From positions 186,001 through 250,000 of the forward strand of contig NZ_CP051154.1 in assembly GCF_012317045.1 (NCBI RefSeq): 64,000 nucleotides of DNA, in the 5' to 3' direction. Below, one piece after another: positions 33,892-47,195 of the stretch. The stretch comes from Leifsonia sp. PS1209. Its GTDB lineage: Bacteria; Actinomycetota; Actinomycetes; Actinomycetales; Microbacteriaceae. The notes below the pieces were generated by a model. It made no database searches. It was not told the origin of the DNA and worked only from the letters and a program-made list of their open reading frames with translations. The translations under genes were made by a program, and so were the position numbers. Numbering within the stretch: the first letter of the stretch is position 1; every line of letters starts with the position of its first letter.

Positions 33892-34078
33892 CAATGTCAA
33901 ATGCCAAAAACCTCGTGTTTAGCTTCGGCTAGGCAAGAGATTCCTTTGGATTAGATACAGAATGTCAGTAGATATTCGAAACTAGTCAGATCAACTCGCG
34001 GGGAGAACAGACCTTTTTCCGGTCCGCTTCTCGCACAGTGTTTCCCTTCCGCTTTCGGGTGGTTGTGGAGCTAAACAT

Positions 34079-35604
<1,526 letters not shown>

Positions 35605-36055
35605 AAGGAGCATCTGGCATCCCGGTGTTGAAAGACGCTGGTGGTGTCCAGGCGCCAGATCGAGACGAATGTTCTCGCTGGTAGCTCATGGGTGGAACAT
35701 TGACATTGGTGCGGAGCTGATCGGCTCGGACTCAGTACGCTTCTTTCGGGGAGTTGGAACGGTTCGGACCCGGATGTTCCGCATATGCACGCTGTTGGGT
35801 CCTGAGGGACCGGGCCTCACCCGTAAGTGGGTGGGAATCGAACCTCTGGACCTTTTCTTGTTGGCCATGATTGGCTGGCGGAGAGGGTACCGCCCGTACT
35901 TTGAGAACTACACAGTGGACGCGAGCATCTTAGATTCGAGACTTTCGAGTCTCGGATCACAAGATCAAATCGACACTCCTTTGGAGTGTTGGTAGATCAT
36001 TGGTCAATCTGCTCACCTTCGGGTGGGCCGATCGATTCATAAACTCATGTGATTT
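35605..36055 (+). other. 16S-23S internal spacer, no tRNA
   Basis: About 450 bases. It contains the 3' strand of the 16S stem (35786-35800), a CACCC/GGGTG hairpin near 35818, a second boxA-like TTGAGAACTACACAG (35901-35915), the 5' strand of the 23S stem (GTGGACGCGAGCATCTT, 35915-35931) and a hairpin GATTCGAGACTTTCGAGTCTCGGATC near 35933. No tRNA-Ile or tRNA-Ala gene, as usual in actinobacteria. Confidence 0.85.
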
Positions 36056-39170
<3,115 letters not shown>

Positions 39171-39307
39171 ATCACTACTCACACACATGTTGTAAGGCTG
39201 GTGTGTGAGGCCTGAAGAATGCTTGCGTCCACTATGTGGTTCTCGATGTACGGTCGAGAACCGAACCAATCAGCTGATTGGTCCGTTCACTTTGATACAT
39301 CAATAGT
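39171..39307 (+). other. 23S-5S spacer with processing stem
   Basis: 137 bases. AAGAATGCTTGCGTCCAC (39215-39232) complements 35915-35931, closing the 23S precursor stem (8 bp, a G-U, 5 bp, a mismatch, 2 bp). A hairpin GGTTCTCGA/TCGAGAACC (39238-39262) and the palindrome CCAATCAGCTGATTGG (39267-39282) follow. Confidence 0.7.
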
Positions 39308-39426
39308 GTTTCGGCGGCCATAGCGAGAGGGAAACGCCCGGTCACATTCCGAACCCGGAAGCTAAGACTCTCTGCGCCGATGGTACTGCAGGGGGGACCC
39401 TGTGGGAGAGTAGGACACCGCCGGAC
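39308..39426 (+). rRNA. rrf: 5S ribosomal RNA
   Basis: About 119 bases. It starts GTTTCGGCGGCCATAGCG and ends at ACACCGCCGGACT, which pairs with the 5' end. The CCCGGTCACATTCCGAACCCGGAAGCTAAG core is typical of 5S. Confidence 0.95.
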
Positions 39427-39434
39427 TCCTTTTA

Positions 39435-39473
39435 GAAAGAGCCACCCCACACCGGGTGGCTCTTTCGCATTTA
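39435..39473 (+). terminator. rRNA operon terminator
   Basis: Perfect 13-base stem GAAAGAGCCACCC (39435-39447) and GGGTGGCTCTTTC (39454-39466) with a 6-base loop, followed by GCATTT. Clear intrinsic terminator nine bases after 5S. Confidence 0.9.
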
Positions 39474-39552
39474 ACACCACCACAACACCACACAGACCAC
39501 ACCACCAACGACATAGGCTGGGCGACAGGCCCGCCACCCAACAGGAGAAGTC

Positions 39553-41886
39553 GTGAGCGATACACCGGCAGACGACCAGCGAGACGCGCGCAGCGCCGAC
39601 GATCGGGGCGGCGCATCCGGTGCACGCTCCGGTGGTGACCGAGGCAACGCACCGCGCAGCTCCGACAGCGGATCGGGTCGCCCGTACCAGGGTGGACGCG
39701 GCGGCAGCTCGCGCGATGGCCAGCGCTCCGACGGCGGCTATCGCGGCGACCGCGCACCCCGAGAAGGCGGCCGCGACGGTCAGCGCTCGGGTGGGTACCG
39801 CAATGATCGTGCGCCGCGGGATGGTGAGCGTTCCGGCGGGTACCGCAATGATCGTGCGCCGCGCGACGGCGAGCGTTCCGGCGGCTATTCTGCCTCGCGG
39901 GACGGCGGTCAGCGCGACGGCTACCGTGGCAACCGCGACTCGGCGCCGCGCGACGGATATCGCGGCAGGAGTGGCGACGCGAACGACGGTGGGCGCGGCG
40001 GTGACCGGGCTCCGCGTCAGGGTGCACCACGCGACGGATATCGCAGCGACCGCGCTCCCCGCGAGGGTGGATACCGAGCAGGCGGTGGCCGGGACGGCGA
40101 GCGTTCGGGTGGCTACCGCGCGAACGGCAGTGCTGCCGGTGCTCCGCGCAGCGGTGGGTCACGAGACGGATATCGAAATGACCGTGCGCCGCGTGATGGC
40201 GAGAAGCGGGACGGATACCGGAGTGACCGGGGCGCGCGTGATGGTGCTCCTCGCGACGGGTATCGCAACGATCGGCGCCCCAGCGATGGTGGTGCGCGTG
40301 ACGGGTATCGCAGTGATCGCGGACCTCGCGAGGGTGCTCCGCGCGATGGCTATCGCAACGACCGGCGCCCCAGCGATGGTGCTCCGCGTGACGGGTATCG
40401 AGGTGACCGCGCGCCGCGTGAGGGTGCTCCGCGGGATGGGTACCGTGGTGACCGAGCGTCACGTGACGGTGCTCCTCGCGATGGCTACCGCAGTGACCGG
40501 GCGCCGCGCGAGGGCGCGCCCCGTGACGGGTACCGCAATGACCGTGCACCCCGCGAGGGTGCCCCGCGCGATGGCTATCGCGCTAGGCGCGACGGGCAGC
40601 GCGGCGGGGCTCCGGCGGGTGACCGTGGGGGCGCATCCCGTGGCTACGACCGCGACGGCGGCGGACGCGGAGCTGGACGCGACGGCGGCGGACGCGGCGA
40701 CAAGCTGTGGACCAGGGACGGCCGGCCGGCTCGTGGCGACCGCGATGCGCGCGACTACGAGCGCGAGCTCACCGAAGAAGAGCGCATGGCGCGGGAACTG
40801 CGATCGGTTCGTCCGCGCCACGACGACCCGGAGATCCCGGAGAGCGTGCAGGCGCGCGACCTCGACAAGGGTGCCCGCGTCGAACTGAAGACCCTGAGCA
40901 AGGACAACGCCGACTGGGTTGCGCGTCACCTGGTGATGGCCGCGCAGCTGATCGAAGAGGACCCGGAGCTCGCGCACCGGCACGCGCTTTCGGCCGCTCG
41001 GCGGGCGGGTCGTATCGCCGTCGTGCGGGAGACGCTCGCGATCACCGCGTACGCGACGGGCGACTTCGCACTCGCGCTGCGGGAACTGCGCACGTACCGC
41101 CGGATCTCCGGATCCAACGAGCAGCTGCCGCTGATGGTGGACAGCGAGCGTGGCGTCGGACGCCCCGATCGCGCGCTTGAGCTGGGTCGGTCCGTTGACC
41201 GTTCCACGCTGCCGAACGACGTGCAGGTGTCCCTGGCGATTGCGATGTCCGGCGCCCGCCTCGACCTTGAGCAGCCGGATGCCGCACTGGCCGAGCTCGA
41301 GATTCCGCAGCTCGACCCCAACCGGGCGTACAGCTGGAGTCCCGACCTGTTCCACGCCTACGCGGACGTGCTCGGCGAAGTCGGACGCACCGAGGAATCC
41401 GAGGCCTGGCGGGAACGTGCGACCCGTGCCGAGGAGGCGATCGGCGAGGCGCTCTCGATGGACGAACACGAGACTGTCGACGTCGTCGAGGAAGAGTACG
41501 AGTTCGACATCGACGGTGAGGACAGTATCGCCATCGGCGACGCCGGAACGTTCGACGACGATGCGGATGTGGTCATCGAGATCGAGGACGACGTCGAGCT
41601 CGACGAGGCGGACGACGAGGACCTGGATGAGGACTCGGACGACGAGGACGACGACGATTACGACTCCGATGACGAGGACGACGACTCTGATGACGACGAG
41701 GACGAGGAGTCGGACGACGACGATGACGATGACGACGATTCCGACGCTGAGGCCGATGACAACGGCGCCGACGAGGACGAAGACGAAGACGACTCGACCG
41801 AAGCCGCGCCCGTGAGCGCCGGCGACGATGACCGCGACGACACGGAGGATGACGCGACCGATGGCCCTGTTTCGACGGAGCGCTAA
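39553..41886 (+). CDS. Arg/Gly-repeat protein with helical core and acidic tail (777 aa)
   Basis: No established function. Residues 1-395 are almost only R, G, D, Y, S, A and P, with nine perfect-length 15-residue repeats (consensus DGYRxDRAPREGAPR, residues 205-339). Residues 400-634 form a conserved helical, TPR-like core (from RDYERELTEEERMARELRSVRP to EAIGEALSMDE). Residues 635-770 are an extreme Asp/Glu tail, including a run of nine Asp. AGGAGAAG precedes the GTG at 39553. It lies 80 bases after the rRNA terminator and overlaps the HAD gene by 26 bases. The core plus HAD neighbour resembles the M. tuberculosis Rv1691-Rv1692 pair as I recall it. Such proteins are sometimes mislabelled replicase polyprotein. 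Confidence 0.9.
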   Translation: MSDTPADDQRDARSADDRGGASGARSGGDRGNAPRSSDSGSGRPYQGGRGGSSRDGQRSDGGYRGDRAPREGGRDGQRSGGYRNDRAPRDGERSGGYRNDRAPRDGERSGGYSASRDGGQRDGYRGNRDSAPRDGYRGRSGDANDGGRGGDRAPRQGAPRDGYRSDRAPREGGYRAGGGRDGERSGGYRANGSAAGAPRSGGSRDGYRNDRAPRDGEKRDGYRSDRGARDGAPRDGYRNDRRPSDGGARDGYRSDRGPREGAPRDGYRNDRRPSDGAPRDGYRGDRAPREGAPRDGYRGDRASRDGAPRDGYRSDRAPREGAPRDGYRNDRAPREGAPRDGYRARRDGQRGGAPAGDRGGASRGYDRDGGGRGAGRDGGGRGDKLWTRDGRPARGDRDARDYERELTEEERMARELRSVRPRHDDPEIPESVQARDLDKGARVELKTLSKDNADWVARHLVMAAQLIEEDPELAHRHALSAARRAGRIAVVRETLAITAYATGDFALALRELRTYRRISGSNEQLPLMVDSERGVGRPDRALELGRSVDRSTLPNDVQVSLAIAMSGARLDLEQPDAALAELEIPQLDPNRAYSWSPDLFHAYADVLGEVGRTEESEAWRERATRAEEAIGEALSMDEHETVDVVEEEYEFDIDGEDSIAIGDAGTFDDDADVVIEIEDDVELDEADDEDLDEDSDDEDDDDYDSDDEDDDSDDDEDEESDDDDDDDDDSDAEADDNGADEDEDEDDSTEAAPVSAGDDDRDDTEDDATDGPVSTER
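40165..40569 (+). repeat. Nine 45-bp in-frame tandem repeats
   Basis: Each unit encodes 15 residues beginning D-G-Y-R; units differ mainly at residues 5, 8 and 10-12. The units keep the frame, so copy number can change without frameshift. The wider region 39730-40165 has looser versions with serine-rich spacers. Confidence 0.9.
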
Positions 41887-42883
41887 GACCGTGACGCCGC
41901 TCGACGGAGTCGATCTGGTGCTGGCCGACCTCGACGGGGTCGTCTACAAGGGCGCCGATGCGATCCCGCACGCCGTGGAGAGCCTCAACCAGGCCGCCGA
42001 AACCGTGCGAGTCGGTTACATCACGAACAACGCATCCCGGACCGACGCATCCGTCGCGGGACACCTCACCGACCTCGGCCTGACGGTGGCGCCGAGCGAC
42101 GTGGTGACCTCGCCGCAGGCCGCCGTGCGGTTGCTGGCCCAGCATGTCCCTGCCGGCGCGACCATCCTGGTCATCGGCGGGGACGGGCTGGTCGACGAGG
42201 TGCAGAAGGGCGGGTTCTCCGTGACCCGTTCCGCCGACGACGACCCGGCCGCCGTGATCCAGGGCTTCGCGCCGGAGATCGGCTGGACCCAGCTCGCTGA
42301 GGCCGCCTTCGCGCTGCAGGGCCGGACGGACGAGGAGCGGCCGTGGGTCGCGACGAACACCGACTGGACCATCCCGGTCGCGCGCGGGATCGCCCCGGGC
42401 AACGGGACGCTCGTGTCCGCTGTGCACACGGCCGCCGGCCGCCTGCCGATCGTGGCGGGCAAGCCGGAGGTGGCGATCTTCGAGGAGGCCGTCACGCGGT
42501 TCGGTTCGTCGAAAGCACTGTTCATCGGTGATCGGCTGGATACCGACATCCTGGGCGCCAATCGCGCGGGGATCGACTCGGTGCTCGTGCTGACCGGTGT
42601 GGATCGGGCCAAGCAGCTGATCGCTGCGGATGCGAACTCGCGGCCGACATACATCCTCGCCGACCTGCGCGGGCTGAGCGAACCGTATCCGGTCACCGAG
42701 TTCAGCAAGGACGGGCGGACGGCCACGGTCGGCGACGCCTCGGTGGCGATCGAGGGCAACGACGTGCGCATCCTGAGCGAGGGCGGCGACGAGCTGAACC
42801 TGCTGCGGGCGGCGTGCGCGGTGATCTGGGGTTCTGGGCGGGCGATCTACGGACTCGAAGTCCCGGAGAAGCTGTACAGCTGA
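41861..42883 (+). CDS. HAD-IIA phosphatase (NagD/glycerol-3-phosphate phosphatase-like)
   Basis: Haloacid dehalogenase-fold phosphatase, 340 residues. Nucleophile motif LADLDGVVYKG with Asp23 and Asp25, motif II in YITNNASR, motif III lysine in AGKPEVAIFEEA and motif IV in FIGDRLDTDILGANRAG. The ATG at 41861 overlaps the previous gene by 26 bases; a GTG at 41891 is an alternative. The M. tuberculosis homologue by position (Rv1692) dephosphorylates glycerol 3-phosphate. The C-terminal 60 residues form an extra domain. It converges with menC four bases after its stop. Confidence 0.9.
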   Translation: MALFRRSAKTVTPLDGVDLVLADLDGVVYKGADAIPHAVESLNQAAETVRVGYITNNASRTDASVAGHLTDLGLTVAPSDVVTSPQAAVRLLAQHVPAGATILVIGGDGLVDEVQKGGFSVTRSADDDPAAVIQGFAPEIGWTQLAEAAFALQGRTDEERPWVATNTDWTIPVARGIAPGNGTLVSAVHTAAGRLPIVAGKPEVAIFEEAVTRFGSSKALFIGDRLDTDILGANRAGIDSVLVLTGVDRAKQLIAADANSRPTYILADLRGLSEPYPVTEFSKDGRTATVGDASVAIEGNDVRILSEGGDELNLLRAACAVIWGSGRAIYGLEVPEKLYS

Positions 42884-44869: not shown

Positions 44870-46135
44870 GTGCAGGCGGAGGACGCGGTGACCAGGGCGT
44901 TGAGGGTGGTGGACTCGGCGCGGGTGGATGAGGTGTTCGAGGCGCTGTGGGATGCGCTCGGGCGCGGAGGGCCGGCGGTGGTGCCGCGGGAAGGCGGGGG
45001 CGGTCGGCGCGTCGGTGGGCGAGTCGACGGTGGGCGGTTCGATGGTGGACGGCTCGACGATGGGCGGGTCGATCGCGTGTGGCCGGGCGAGAGCGAGCGG
45101 GTGGGGCAGAACGTCGCGCTCGTGATCGAGACCTCCGGGTCGACGGGAGTGCCGAAGCGGGTGGCGCTGTCCGCGGACGCGCTGCTGGCCAGTGCGGCGG
45201 CCTCGGCGGGCGCGATGGGCGGGCAGGGACAGTGGATGCTCGCCCTGCCGGCGCACTACGTCGCGGGAGCGCAGGTGCTGGTGCGGTCGATTGCGGCCGA
45301 GACGGAGCCGGTGCTCTATGGCGATGGCCACTTCGACCCCGGGCGGTTCGCCGAGGTGGCGCGAGACCTCACCCACGACCTGCGGTTCGTCTCGCTCGTG
45401 CCGGTGCAGCTGGCGCGGCTGGTCGCGGCGACGGAGGCCGGCGACAGGGTGGTGGCGGACGCTCTGCGGCGATTCGACGGGATCCTCGTGGGCGGCCAGG
45501 CGCTGACCACGGAGCTGCGCGAGCGCGCGCTGGACGCGGGGGCGCGCATCCTGAGCACCTACGGGTCGAGTGAGACGGCGGGCGGGTGCGTGTACGACGG
45601 GCGTCCGATCGGCACGACCGCGGTGCGGTCGGTGGACGGGTTGCTCGAGATCGCGGGGCCGGTGCTTGCGGAAGGCTACCTTGGCGACCCGGATAGGACG
45701 GCGGCCGCGTTCCATGAGGCGGATGGGCAGAAGTGGTATCGCACGGGAGACCTCGGCGCGGTGGACGACGGGCTGGTGAGGGTGTTCGGGCGTGCGGACA
45801 ACGTGATCATCTCCGGTGGGGAGAAGGTGCTGCTCGACGCTGTCGAGGGGGCGGTTCGGGCTCTCGACGGGTTCGGCGGCGCGGTCGTCGTGGCGGCGGA
45901 CGATGCCGAGTGGGGTCAGGTGCCGGTTGTGGTCGTCGAGAGTGGCGGGGCTGCAGCGGCCACCGAGCTCGCCGCAGTGCGCGCTCATGTGGCGGAACAG
46001 GTCGGGAGGGCGGCGGCGCCTGCGGAGGTCGTGGAGGTGGATGTGCTTCCGCACCTCAGCAGCGGCAAGCCGGACCGGGTGGCTGCGCGGCGGATCGCGG
46101 AGAGCGCGCGGGGCGAGCGGGCGAGGCGGGGGTGA
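44870..46135 (+). CDS. menE: o-Succinylbenzoate-CoA ligase
   Basis: Acyl-CoA synthetase of the ANL family, 421 residues. P-loop IETSGSTGVPKRV, A5-like STYGSSETAGG, A7 YRTGDLG, A8 RADNVIISGGEKV and the C-terminal catalytic Lys in SSGKPDRVAARR are present. Residues 48-69 hold four 5-residue R-V/F/L-D-G-G repeats inserted before the P-loop. The GTG at 44870 is provisional; GTG at 44888 is also possible. Short compared with B. subtilis MenE, as usual in actinobacteria. Confidence 0.93.
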   Translation: MQAEDAVTRALRVVDSARVDEVFEALWDALGRGGPAVVPREGGGGRRVGGRVDGGRFDGGRLDDGRVDRVWPGESERVGQNVALVIETSGSTGVPKRVALSADALLASAAASAGAMGGQGQWMLALPAHYVAGAQVLVRSIAAETEPVLYGDGHFDPGRFAEVARDLTHDLRFVSLVPVQLARLVAATEAGDRVVADALRRFDGILVGGQALTTELRERALDAGARILSTYGSSETAGGCVYDGRPIGTTAVRSVDGLLEIAGPVLAEGYLGDPDRTAAAFHEADGQKWYRTGDLGAVDDGLVRVFGRADNVIISGGEKVLLDAVEGAVRALDGFGGAVVVAADDAEWGQVPVVVVESGGAAAATELAAVRAHVAEQVGRAAAPAEVVEVDVLPHLSSGKPDRVAARRIAESARGERARRG

Positions 46136-46201
46136 GGCGCGGCACGGTGCGCGCGATGCGACGAGCGACGGGGGCGGACGAAACGGCATAGCGGTTGTTG
46201 T

Positions 46202-46207
46202 TACGAT
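46202..46207 (+). promoter_or_regulatory. Leaderless -10 for menA
   Basis: TACGAT, seven bases before the GTG at 46215, which supports that start over the ATG at 46218. Confidence 0.45.
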
Positions 46208-46214
46208 TCGCTCT

Positions 46215-47195
46215 GTGATGAGTCAGAACAAGCCACGGATGCAACGGATGACGCCCGCTCAGCGCGGCAACGGCGGCAAGAGCGGTCGGCCGGGGGCGGC
46301 GAAGGTCAAGGTCAAGCCCGCTACCGCATCCGACTGGATCGCCGGGGCGCGCCTGCGCACGCTTCCGCTGGCCATCGCGCCCGTCATCATCGGTGTCGGG
46401 GCCGCCAAGGTCGCTGACGGAGCGGGCATCTGGCATCCGGTTCGTGCGCTTCTCTGCCTCGCGGTCGCGGTGTTCCTGCAGATCGGTGTCAACTACGCGA
46501 ACGACTACTCCGACGGCATCCGGGGCACGGACCAGTTCCGGGTGGGGCCGAGCCGGCTGACCGGTTCTGGACGGGCGGCGCCCAAGCGGGTGCTCACCGT
46601 CGCGCTCGTCTTCTTCGCGCTCGGGGCGGTCGCCGGGCTGGCGCTCGTGCTGCTGACCCAGCACTGGTGGGTCATCCTCGTGGGCGCGGCCGCCATCGTC
46701 GCGGCGTGGTTCTACACCGGAGGAAAGCGGCCGTACGGCTACTTCGGCCTCGGTGAAGTGTTCGTCTTCGTGTTCTTCGGGCTCGTCGCGACGGCGGGGA
46801 CCACCTACATGCTGTCCGGCGTCGTCAACCAGGAAGCCTGGTTCGGCGCGGTCATCGCGGGGCTCATCGCGTGCGCCGTGCTGATGGTGAACAACATCCG
46901 GGACATCGGGCCGGACAAGCAGGCGGGCAAGCGAACGCTCGCCGTGCTGCTCGGCAACGTCGCAGCCCGGATCGTCTTCTGCGTGTTCCTGCTGGTGCCG
47001 TTCGGCATCCTCGCGGTGCTCGCGTTGCTGTACCCGTTCGCCTGGTTCGGGATGTTCGCCCTGCTGGCCGCGCTGCCCGCGTGCGCGATCACACTGTTCG
47101 CAAAGACTCCGCGGGAGCTGGTCACCGCGCTGCAGCTCACCAGCTTCACTGGGCTGCTGGTCGCGCTGGCGCTCGGGGCGGCGTACGCGTTCTAG
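46215..47195 (+). CDS. menA: 1,4-Dihydroxy-2-naphthoate polyprenyltransferase
   Basis: UbiA-family membrane prenyltransferase that attaches the isoprenoid tail to DHNA. 326 residues. The prenyl-diphosphate Mg motif NYANDYSDGIRGTD and the second Asp-rich loop NNIRDIGPDKQAGKRTLAV are clear, with eight to nine helices around them. The first 40 residues are a basic Gln/Lys-rich extension. It begins 79 bases after menE and converges with a DUF4229 gene. Confidence 0.95.
   Translation: MMSQNKPRMQRMTPAQRGNGGKSGRPGAAKVKVKPATASDWIAGARLRTLPLAIAPVIIGVGAAKVADGAGIWHPVRALLCLAVAVFLQIGVNYANDYSDGIRGTDQFRVGPSRLTGSGRAAPKRVLTVALVFFALGAVAGLALVLLTQHWWVILVGAAAIVAAWFYTGGKRPYGYFGLGEVFVFVFFGLVATAGTTYMLSGVVNQEAWFGAVIAGLIACAVLMVNNIRDIGPDKQAGKRTLAVLLGNVAARIVFCVFLLVPFGILAVLALLYPFAWFGMFALLAALPACAITLFAKTPRELVTALQLTSFTGLLVALALGAAYAF

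Follow-up and report, generated by a model that had tools for sequence, protein, structure and literature searches.

A TPR protein with an arginine- and glycine-rich arm encoded behind rRNA genes in Actinomycetota, a candidate RNA-binding scaffold

Why should a gene whose product combines an arginine- and glycine-rich arm with a strongly acidic tail lie directly behind an rRNA operon, and is the position a clue to what the protein does? The window analyzed here is a stretch of 64,000 nucleotides from Leifsonia sp. PS1209, whose one-contig genome holds a single copy of the gene. The protein has no assigned function and its relatives are filed as 'hypothetical' or 'primosomal protein', yet it is near-universal in its class, where a profile of its core matches 139 of 148 genomes (best E per genome at most 4.3e-57). 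In Leifsonia, Rhodococcus, Nocardia and fast-growing mycobacteria, and also in other classes, the gene follows rRNA genes directly; the open-licence literature searched yielded no description of this phylum-wide link. If the protein acts on rRNA, it would fill a gap among the ribosome-biogenesis factors of a phylum to which antibiotic producers and major pathogens belong, and would offer a bacterial parallel to the way eukaryotes pair RG-rich and acidic chains at rRNA genes.

A constrained protein with an arginine-rich arm, a predicted TPR core and an acidic tail

The features of the locus are collected in Table 1. An arm, a core and an acidic tail behind an rRNA operon had been predicted from the letters of the window, and this architecture is confirmed, with the 5S gene 126 nt upstream of a frame whose start codon, read from the sequence, is GTG. 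The arm contains 92 Arg, 2 Lys and 21 Tyr residues, is 24% Gly and carries a net charge of +27; the tail contains 58 Asp and 23 Glu residues and carries a net charge of -79. The expected nine tandem units were approximately right, since ten DGYR registers recur at exactly 15-residue spacing from residue 205 to residue 340 and Tandem Repeats Finder counts 8.1 copies of the repeat. A search of the same genome for a second copy of the arm returned none at E up to 10, the sole extra row being the antisense strand of the same locus.

Table 1. Features of the locus in window coordinates
Feature	Coordinates	Strand	Evidence
rRNA operon 16S-23S-5S	34078..39426	+	Rfam
16S	34078..35602	+	Rfam
23S	36054..39172	+	Rfam
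5S	39310..39426	+	Rfam
Terminator-like 13-bp hairpin 3' of 5S	39435..39466	+	-25.5 kcal/mol, z -7.4
TAGGCT, possible -10 of the gene's own promoter	39514..39519	+	Read from sequence, inference
Shine-Dalgarno AGGAGA before GTG 39553	39543..39548	+	Sequence
rrn-linked RG-arm / TPR / acidic-tail protein, 777 aa	39553..41886	+	ORF list
R/G/D/Y-rich arm, residues 1-395	39553..40737	+	Composition, pN/pS
RDGYR-type tandem repeats, 45-nt (15-residue)	40206..40571	+	Tandem Repeats Finder
Conserved TPR core, residues 396-640	40738..41472	+	Alignments, predicted structure
Acidic tail, residues 641-777 (137 residues)	41473..41883	+	Composition
HAD-IIA phosphatase (longest frame), weak GNAT-like C-terminal match, Rv1692-like by position	41828..42883	+	Domain scans

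Codon comparisons in seven congener pairs give pN/pS values of 0.20-0.31 for the arm, 0.05-0.10 for the core and 0.05-0.56 for the tail, with codons paired via the protein alignment, which favours low pN. The arm values indicate that this part is translated and constrained beyond chance. In a survey of 800 kb of the same genome, composition alone proved an unsafe criterion for R-rich frames in GC-rich DNA, since reading GC-rich genes out of frame also yields Arg-rich translations; the simple gene caller used in this survey did not rank the 777-aa frame among the best. The public record of one Leifsonia relative (P0124) has 334 aa and the corresponding open frame (L032) 714 codons, which indicates that the gene caller cut the arm short.

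The core is predicted by AlphaFold2 to form a TPR superhelix (pLDDT 91.8), with the repeated helix-turn-helix arrangement of the TPR superfamily. Its fold matches are generic TPR scaffolds that give no functional hint, and a sequence search for solved relatives brought up a designed protein at E 0.0034 and, near E 0.9, two TPR chains. Pfam gives only a marginal TPR match and NCBIfam none. Pfam recognized no RNA-binding domain in the protein, and an RRM of the kind found in nucleolin was absent from the Pfam scan at E 0.1. The name 'primosomal protein' carried by many relatives finds no primosome domain in Pfam or NCBIfam. The JGI name of several relatives, 23S rRNA pseudouridine-2605 synthase, is a misnaming, as neither database places such a domain in the protein; that enzyme presumably has a similar low-complexity arm, and its synthase domain is missing here. 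Further relatives are named an adhesin.

The spacer in front of the gene carries a hairpin that ends 86 nt before the start codon and is visible by eye across 19 aligned full congener spacers. The T-run behind its stem is short, and an automatic pattern scan called no terminator there. The TAGGCT motif occurs in 12 of these 19 spacers, a set that leaves aside 8 more shortened by the start-picking rule; a sigma-70 scan of the spacer did not call this motif and reported no consensus promoter. With a strong hairpin after the 5S gene and TAGGCT before the start, the gene is probably transcribed from a promoter of its own located just past the operon's terminator, and read-through from the operon may also serve its expression.

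Arm and tail composition was compared in 60 frames, comprising the window and 59 frames from outside the genus, which remained of 97 loci after setting aside 8 truncated, 2 with masked letters, 26 other congeners and one fused frame (L104). Because start codons were assigned with a simple Shine-Dalgarno rule, the arm lengths are to be taken as approximate. The arm has at least 100 aa in 45 of the 60 frames and is R/G-rich through much of the class; it is thus not confined to Microbacteriaceae, a restriction that the original prediction had raised. Every one of the 45 long arms is positively charged overall and contains at least 15% Arg, and in 44 of them Arg exceeds twice Lys. Of the composition on which the earlier idea drew, Tyr/Arg/Gly repeats plus an oppositely charged tail, the Arg-rich arm is widespread and the other features are less so, with aromatic residues at 3% or more in just 23 of the 45 long arms and an acidic tail (at least 20 aa with a net charge of -8 or lower) in 33 of the 60 frames. 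Thirty-one of those 33 tailed frames also have a long arm, and arm charge is anticorrelated with tail charge (rho -0.47, p 1.6e-4, kinship ignored). Short-armed, tailless homologues occur in mycobacteria, in f40 and in part of f41.

For arms of at least 60 aa, the Arg share does not depend on local GC content (rho -0.20, p 0.15), measured over the 4 kb downstream of the gene, whereas the Lys share tracks it (rho -0.50, p 1e-4). Ten arms at loci with a GC content of 0.46-0.61 have 17-28% Arg and at most 7% Lys. The repeat units are unlike between genera, which indicates that composition is kept while sequence turns over.

rRNA genes as upstream neighbour across the phylum, with joint relocation and duplication

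Gene order was read at 97 loci, which are the window, 56 loci from relatives and 40 class or phylum matches picked to spread families and to favour complete assemblies. A locus was counted as adjacent if a 5S gene lay on the same strand no more than 650 bp upstream of the open frame. By this criterion 71 loci are adjacent, 6 have rRNA genes farther away on the same strand, 8 have none and 12 end too soon on their contig. The conserved neighbourhood that the original prediction proposed to look for therefore extends far beyond the family, at 71 of 85 informative loci with a median distance of 47 bp, distributed as 27/27 in the genus, 5/8 in the family, 9/13 in the order, 26/29 in the class and 4/8 in other classes. 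Seven of the 85 lack rRNA genes over at least about 9 kb; an eighth, which belongs to the other-class misses, shows none in the 679 bp before its contig ends. At L122 (genome G110) the gene has 5S and 23S genes upstream with no 16S match in the stretch and one 16S elsewhere in the genome, which may be a broken operon or an effect of masked letters; L115, L126 and L127 likewise have no 16S match.

Among 80 named loci of Mycobacteriales, a script found a 5S gene within 1.5 kb of the core in 41; at 28 more the contig ends first, and 11 lack one. Reading by hand added L206 (Nocardia ignorata), whose very long frame also has an adjacent 5S gene, and placed the 5S gene of L183 3.7 kb away. With L206 included, 42 of 52 informative loci have a 5S gene close upstream, and nine, all Mycobacterium or Mycobacteroides (L157, L166, L167, L169, L177, L179, L180, L185 and L186), keep the gene with no rRNA genes within 10 kb upstream. 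Eight of these nine have the end of tyrS 0.1-2 kb upstream of the core, and the consulted sections of two reports place rrnB downstream of tyrS as the second operon of fast-growing mycobacteria generally (PMC10218544; PMC6089878). Given both, the simplest account is that these nine lost the adjacent operon and retained the gene. Adjacency is therefore dispensable. The original prediction had named homologues with the same core, no arm and no rRNA link as the pattern that would speak against it; that pattern did not occur in this form, although short-armed, tailless and operon-less homologues do exist.

The recurrent neighbours of the gene are tyrS, tlyA (for a TlyA-family rRNA 2'-O-methyltransferase), nadK and recN. 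Many relatives have the order tyrS-rrn-TPR-HAD-tlyA-nadK-recN, and the related genera share tyrS-rrn-gene-HAD-tlyA. By frame clustering, tyrS is upstream of the operon in 20 of the 34 adjacent extra-genus loci with enough DNA, a count that passes over G037, where tyrS does lie farther upstream. The window keeps only rrn-TPR-HAD, beside ccsB and menaquinone genes, and the rest has closed up at 1.197 Mb; its operon contains one of the two 16S genes of the genome. No rRNA genes lie in the roughly 13-16 kb behind tyrS in any of the 14 congeners examined (of 28), in which tyrS runs to tlyA over at most 400 bp in 10 and at most 4.6 kb in all 14. The simplest reading is that the rrn-gene-HAD block moved once from the tyrS...tlyA locus, in one event rather than fourteen. 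Near the new site, about 165 residues precede the MenA match in the menA frame (45816-47195, +), whose true start is probably later than listed.

The TPR gene is not alone in being durably linked to rRNA genes, since these also follow tyrS in G037, G044 and G047. At L235 (G037), tyrS is followed by a complete rRNA operon and, about 3 kb behind that, by a second 16S gene; there are apparently tandem operons between tyrS and the TPR gene in that genome.

Three genomes of the class (G080, G145 and G089) have two strong core matches each, and all six copies (L282, L283, L284, L121, L285 and L286) have a 5S gene directly upstream; for one G089 copy the draft contig stops at that point. The number of 16S genes is exactly two in G080 and likewise in G145. 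In G145 the two copies match at 98.9% over 5.6 kb, to a point 2 nt short of the end of the stop codon, and in G080 they match at 100% over 4.9 kb, to 23-26 nt short of it; the DNA compared begins inside the 16S gene, so these limits describe the downstream side only. The downstream edge of the repeated unit in both genomes is thus the TPR gene. The two G089 cores have diverged to about 72% DNA identity. Two-copy genomes and operon-less lineages provide natural tests.

Candidate roles of the protein

The original prediction drew a parallel to the Rv1691-Rv1692 pair of mycobacteria, and the synteny fits. The window core aligns with those of its relatives, and Rv1691 and MSMEG_3754 belong to the same core family, the f22 core of L102 being 43% identical to that of the window. 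Neighbours are shared as well, with tyrS and rrnB upstream and, in f22 loci, HAD, tlyA, nadK and recN downstream. Unlike the window protein, the mycobacterial proteins have a short arm of about 20-180 residues from frame start to core, those at the f22 loci L101, L102, L103 and L105 have no acidic tail, and some mycobacteria have lost the adjacent rrnB.

In the portions of PMC7092591 consulted, MSMEG_3754 is given as the Rv1691 orthologue and belongs to the high-confidence list of 275 proteins from a formaldehyde-crosslinked pull-down with anti-RNA-polymerase-beta. FLAG-tagged MSMEG_3754 recovered no DNA there; in the authors' view the DNA was possibly too little to see, or such proteins may be RNA-associated (PMC7092591). 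A list of 275 proteins obtained after formaldehyde makes the pull-down weak evidence. The protein is also found in a ClpC1 interactome table, as excerpted from PMC10433963. An extract of PMC3779251 identifies the 23S gene as MSMEG_3756 and the 16S gene as MSMEG_3757, which puts the MSMEG_3754 tag next but one to the rRNA.

The proposed association with RNA or the ribosome is based on composition, location and this one published pull-down of a mycobacterial orthologue. The preferred reading, held tentatively and at a little less than an even chance, is that the protein would be an rrn-linked RNA-binding scaffold near RNA polymerase that serves rRNA synthesis or ribosome assembly. The arm would contact nascent rRNA through Arg and Gly, and in about half of the long-armed relatives also through Tyr, Phe and Trp. 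The acidic tail, where present, would compete with RNA for the arm and make binding weak and reversible, and the TPR core would dock a protein partner. While rRNA is made and ribosomes are assembled, the protein would thus act near RNA polymerase as a multivalent scaffold, with the place next to the operon tying gene dosage, and perhaps local supply, to rRNA output. The position behind rRNA genes across the phylum, the joint relocation and duplication and an Arg share independent of GC content count for this proposal, as does the rRNA methyltransferase gene tlyA as a recurrent neighbour. Counted against it are the lineages without an adjacent operon, the short mycobacterial arms and the tailless f22 proteins, the durable HAD neighbour, the likewise rrn-linked tyrS and the lack of a Pfam RNA-binding domain.

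Nucleolin and other nucleolar RGG/acidic proteins combine an R/G-rich arm, an acidic tract and a link to rRNA genes. The window protein resembles nucleolin in joining such an arm and tract in one chain and in its rRNA-gene link, and differs in having a TPR core, no RRM or Pfam RNA-binding domain, and genomic adjacency in place of a nucleolus; no homology is claimed. Bacterial RNase E bodies and the RNA-polymerase/rrn clusters of Escherichia coli are multivalent scaffolds at RNA or rrn sites. The scaffold role proposed here is similar to theirs, although the proteins are unrelated. A bolder form of the proposal, which we consider unlikely in full, would give the rRNA locus of Actinomycetota a fourth, protein-coding member. 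This nucleolin-like scaffold would condense with nascent pre-rRNA and RNA polymerase at its own operon, and its gene would travel and duplicate with the operon since both the amount made and the site of synthesis have to be matched to rRNA output.

The protein may instead be a general RNA-binding or RNA-decay scaffold, partner to a ribonuclease or helicase, that acts on many RNAs and whose place was inherited and kept passively as rrn copies recombine and duplicate as repeats. This is possible, though we would judge it rather unlikely. It gains from the retention of the gene where the operon is gone, from the several genomes in which tyrS keeps rRNA genes and from an arm composition that says RNA and not which RNA. 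Recombination between operons can also leave one upstream of a gene, and in G047 tyrS and the TPR gene have one each. Against passive retention, the duplicated segments end downstream at the TPR gene and the relocated one at HAD, and the adjacency of rRNA genes in the class and in other classes contrasts with the 20 of 34 extra-genus loci that have tyrS upstream.

A second alternative, which appears doubtful, treats the rRNA link as incidental: the protein would regulate the HAD phosphatase encoded next to it, or serve that enzyme as a scaffold, and the arm would be a tether. In the window the longest HAD-IIA frame form, starting at 41828, overlaps the end of the TPR gene. We take its positional counterpart Rv1692 to be a glycerol-3-phosphate phosphatase. 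An HAD-IIA gene lies within 1.5 kb in the genus (28/28), family (9/9), order (18/20), class (16/32) and other classes (1/8). One further class locus is fused: at L104 (5178-7022, -) of genome G168, the TPR core, HAD and a GNAT-like end form one frame of 615 aa, and a frame of comparable size, at 660 aa, is present in the congener G178. Of the 15 remaining class misses, nine carry HAD on the same strand at a distance of 1.9-3.4 kb downstream, one shows a match on the other strand and five have none in the stretch read, so that HAD is within 3.5 kb on the same strand at 26 of 32 class loci, fusion included. The seven other-class misses comprise two with HAD 3-4 kb downstream and five with no match. 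This durability, together with the G168 fusion, suggests a metabolic partner. As immediate neighbour, however, rRNA genes exceed HAD (26/29 versus 17/32 in the class and 4/8 versus 1/8 in other classes), and a metabolic partner leaves an Arg-rich arm of 400 residues unexplained. Because of the nine class loci with HAD slightly farther downstream, rRNA genes outlast HAD only as the immediate neighbour, and HAD stays in the wider neighbourhood.

That repeats expanding in a GC-rich genome produced the arm as a neutral by-product, with the TPR core working alone as an ordinary protein-protein adaptor, is improbable: the variable repeat units, the GC-rich codons for R, G and D and the short mycobacterial arms agree with it, but the Arg-rich, Lys-poor arms at ten loci of 46-61% GC, the pN/pS of the arm and the long arm in 45 of 60 frames do not.
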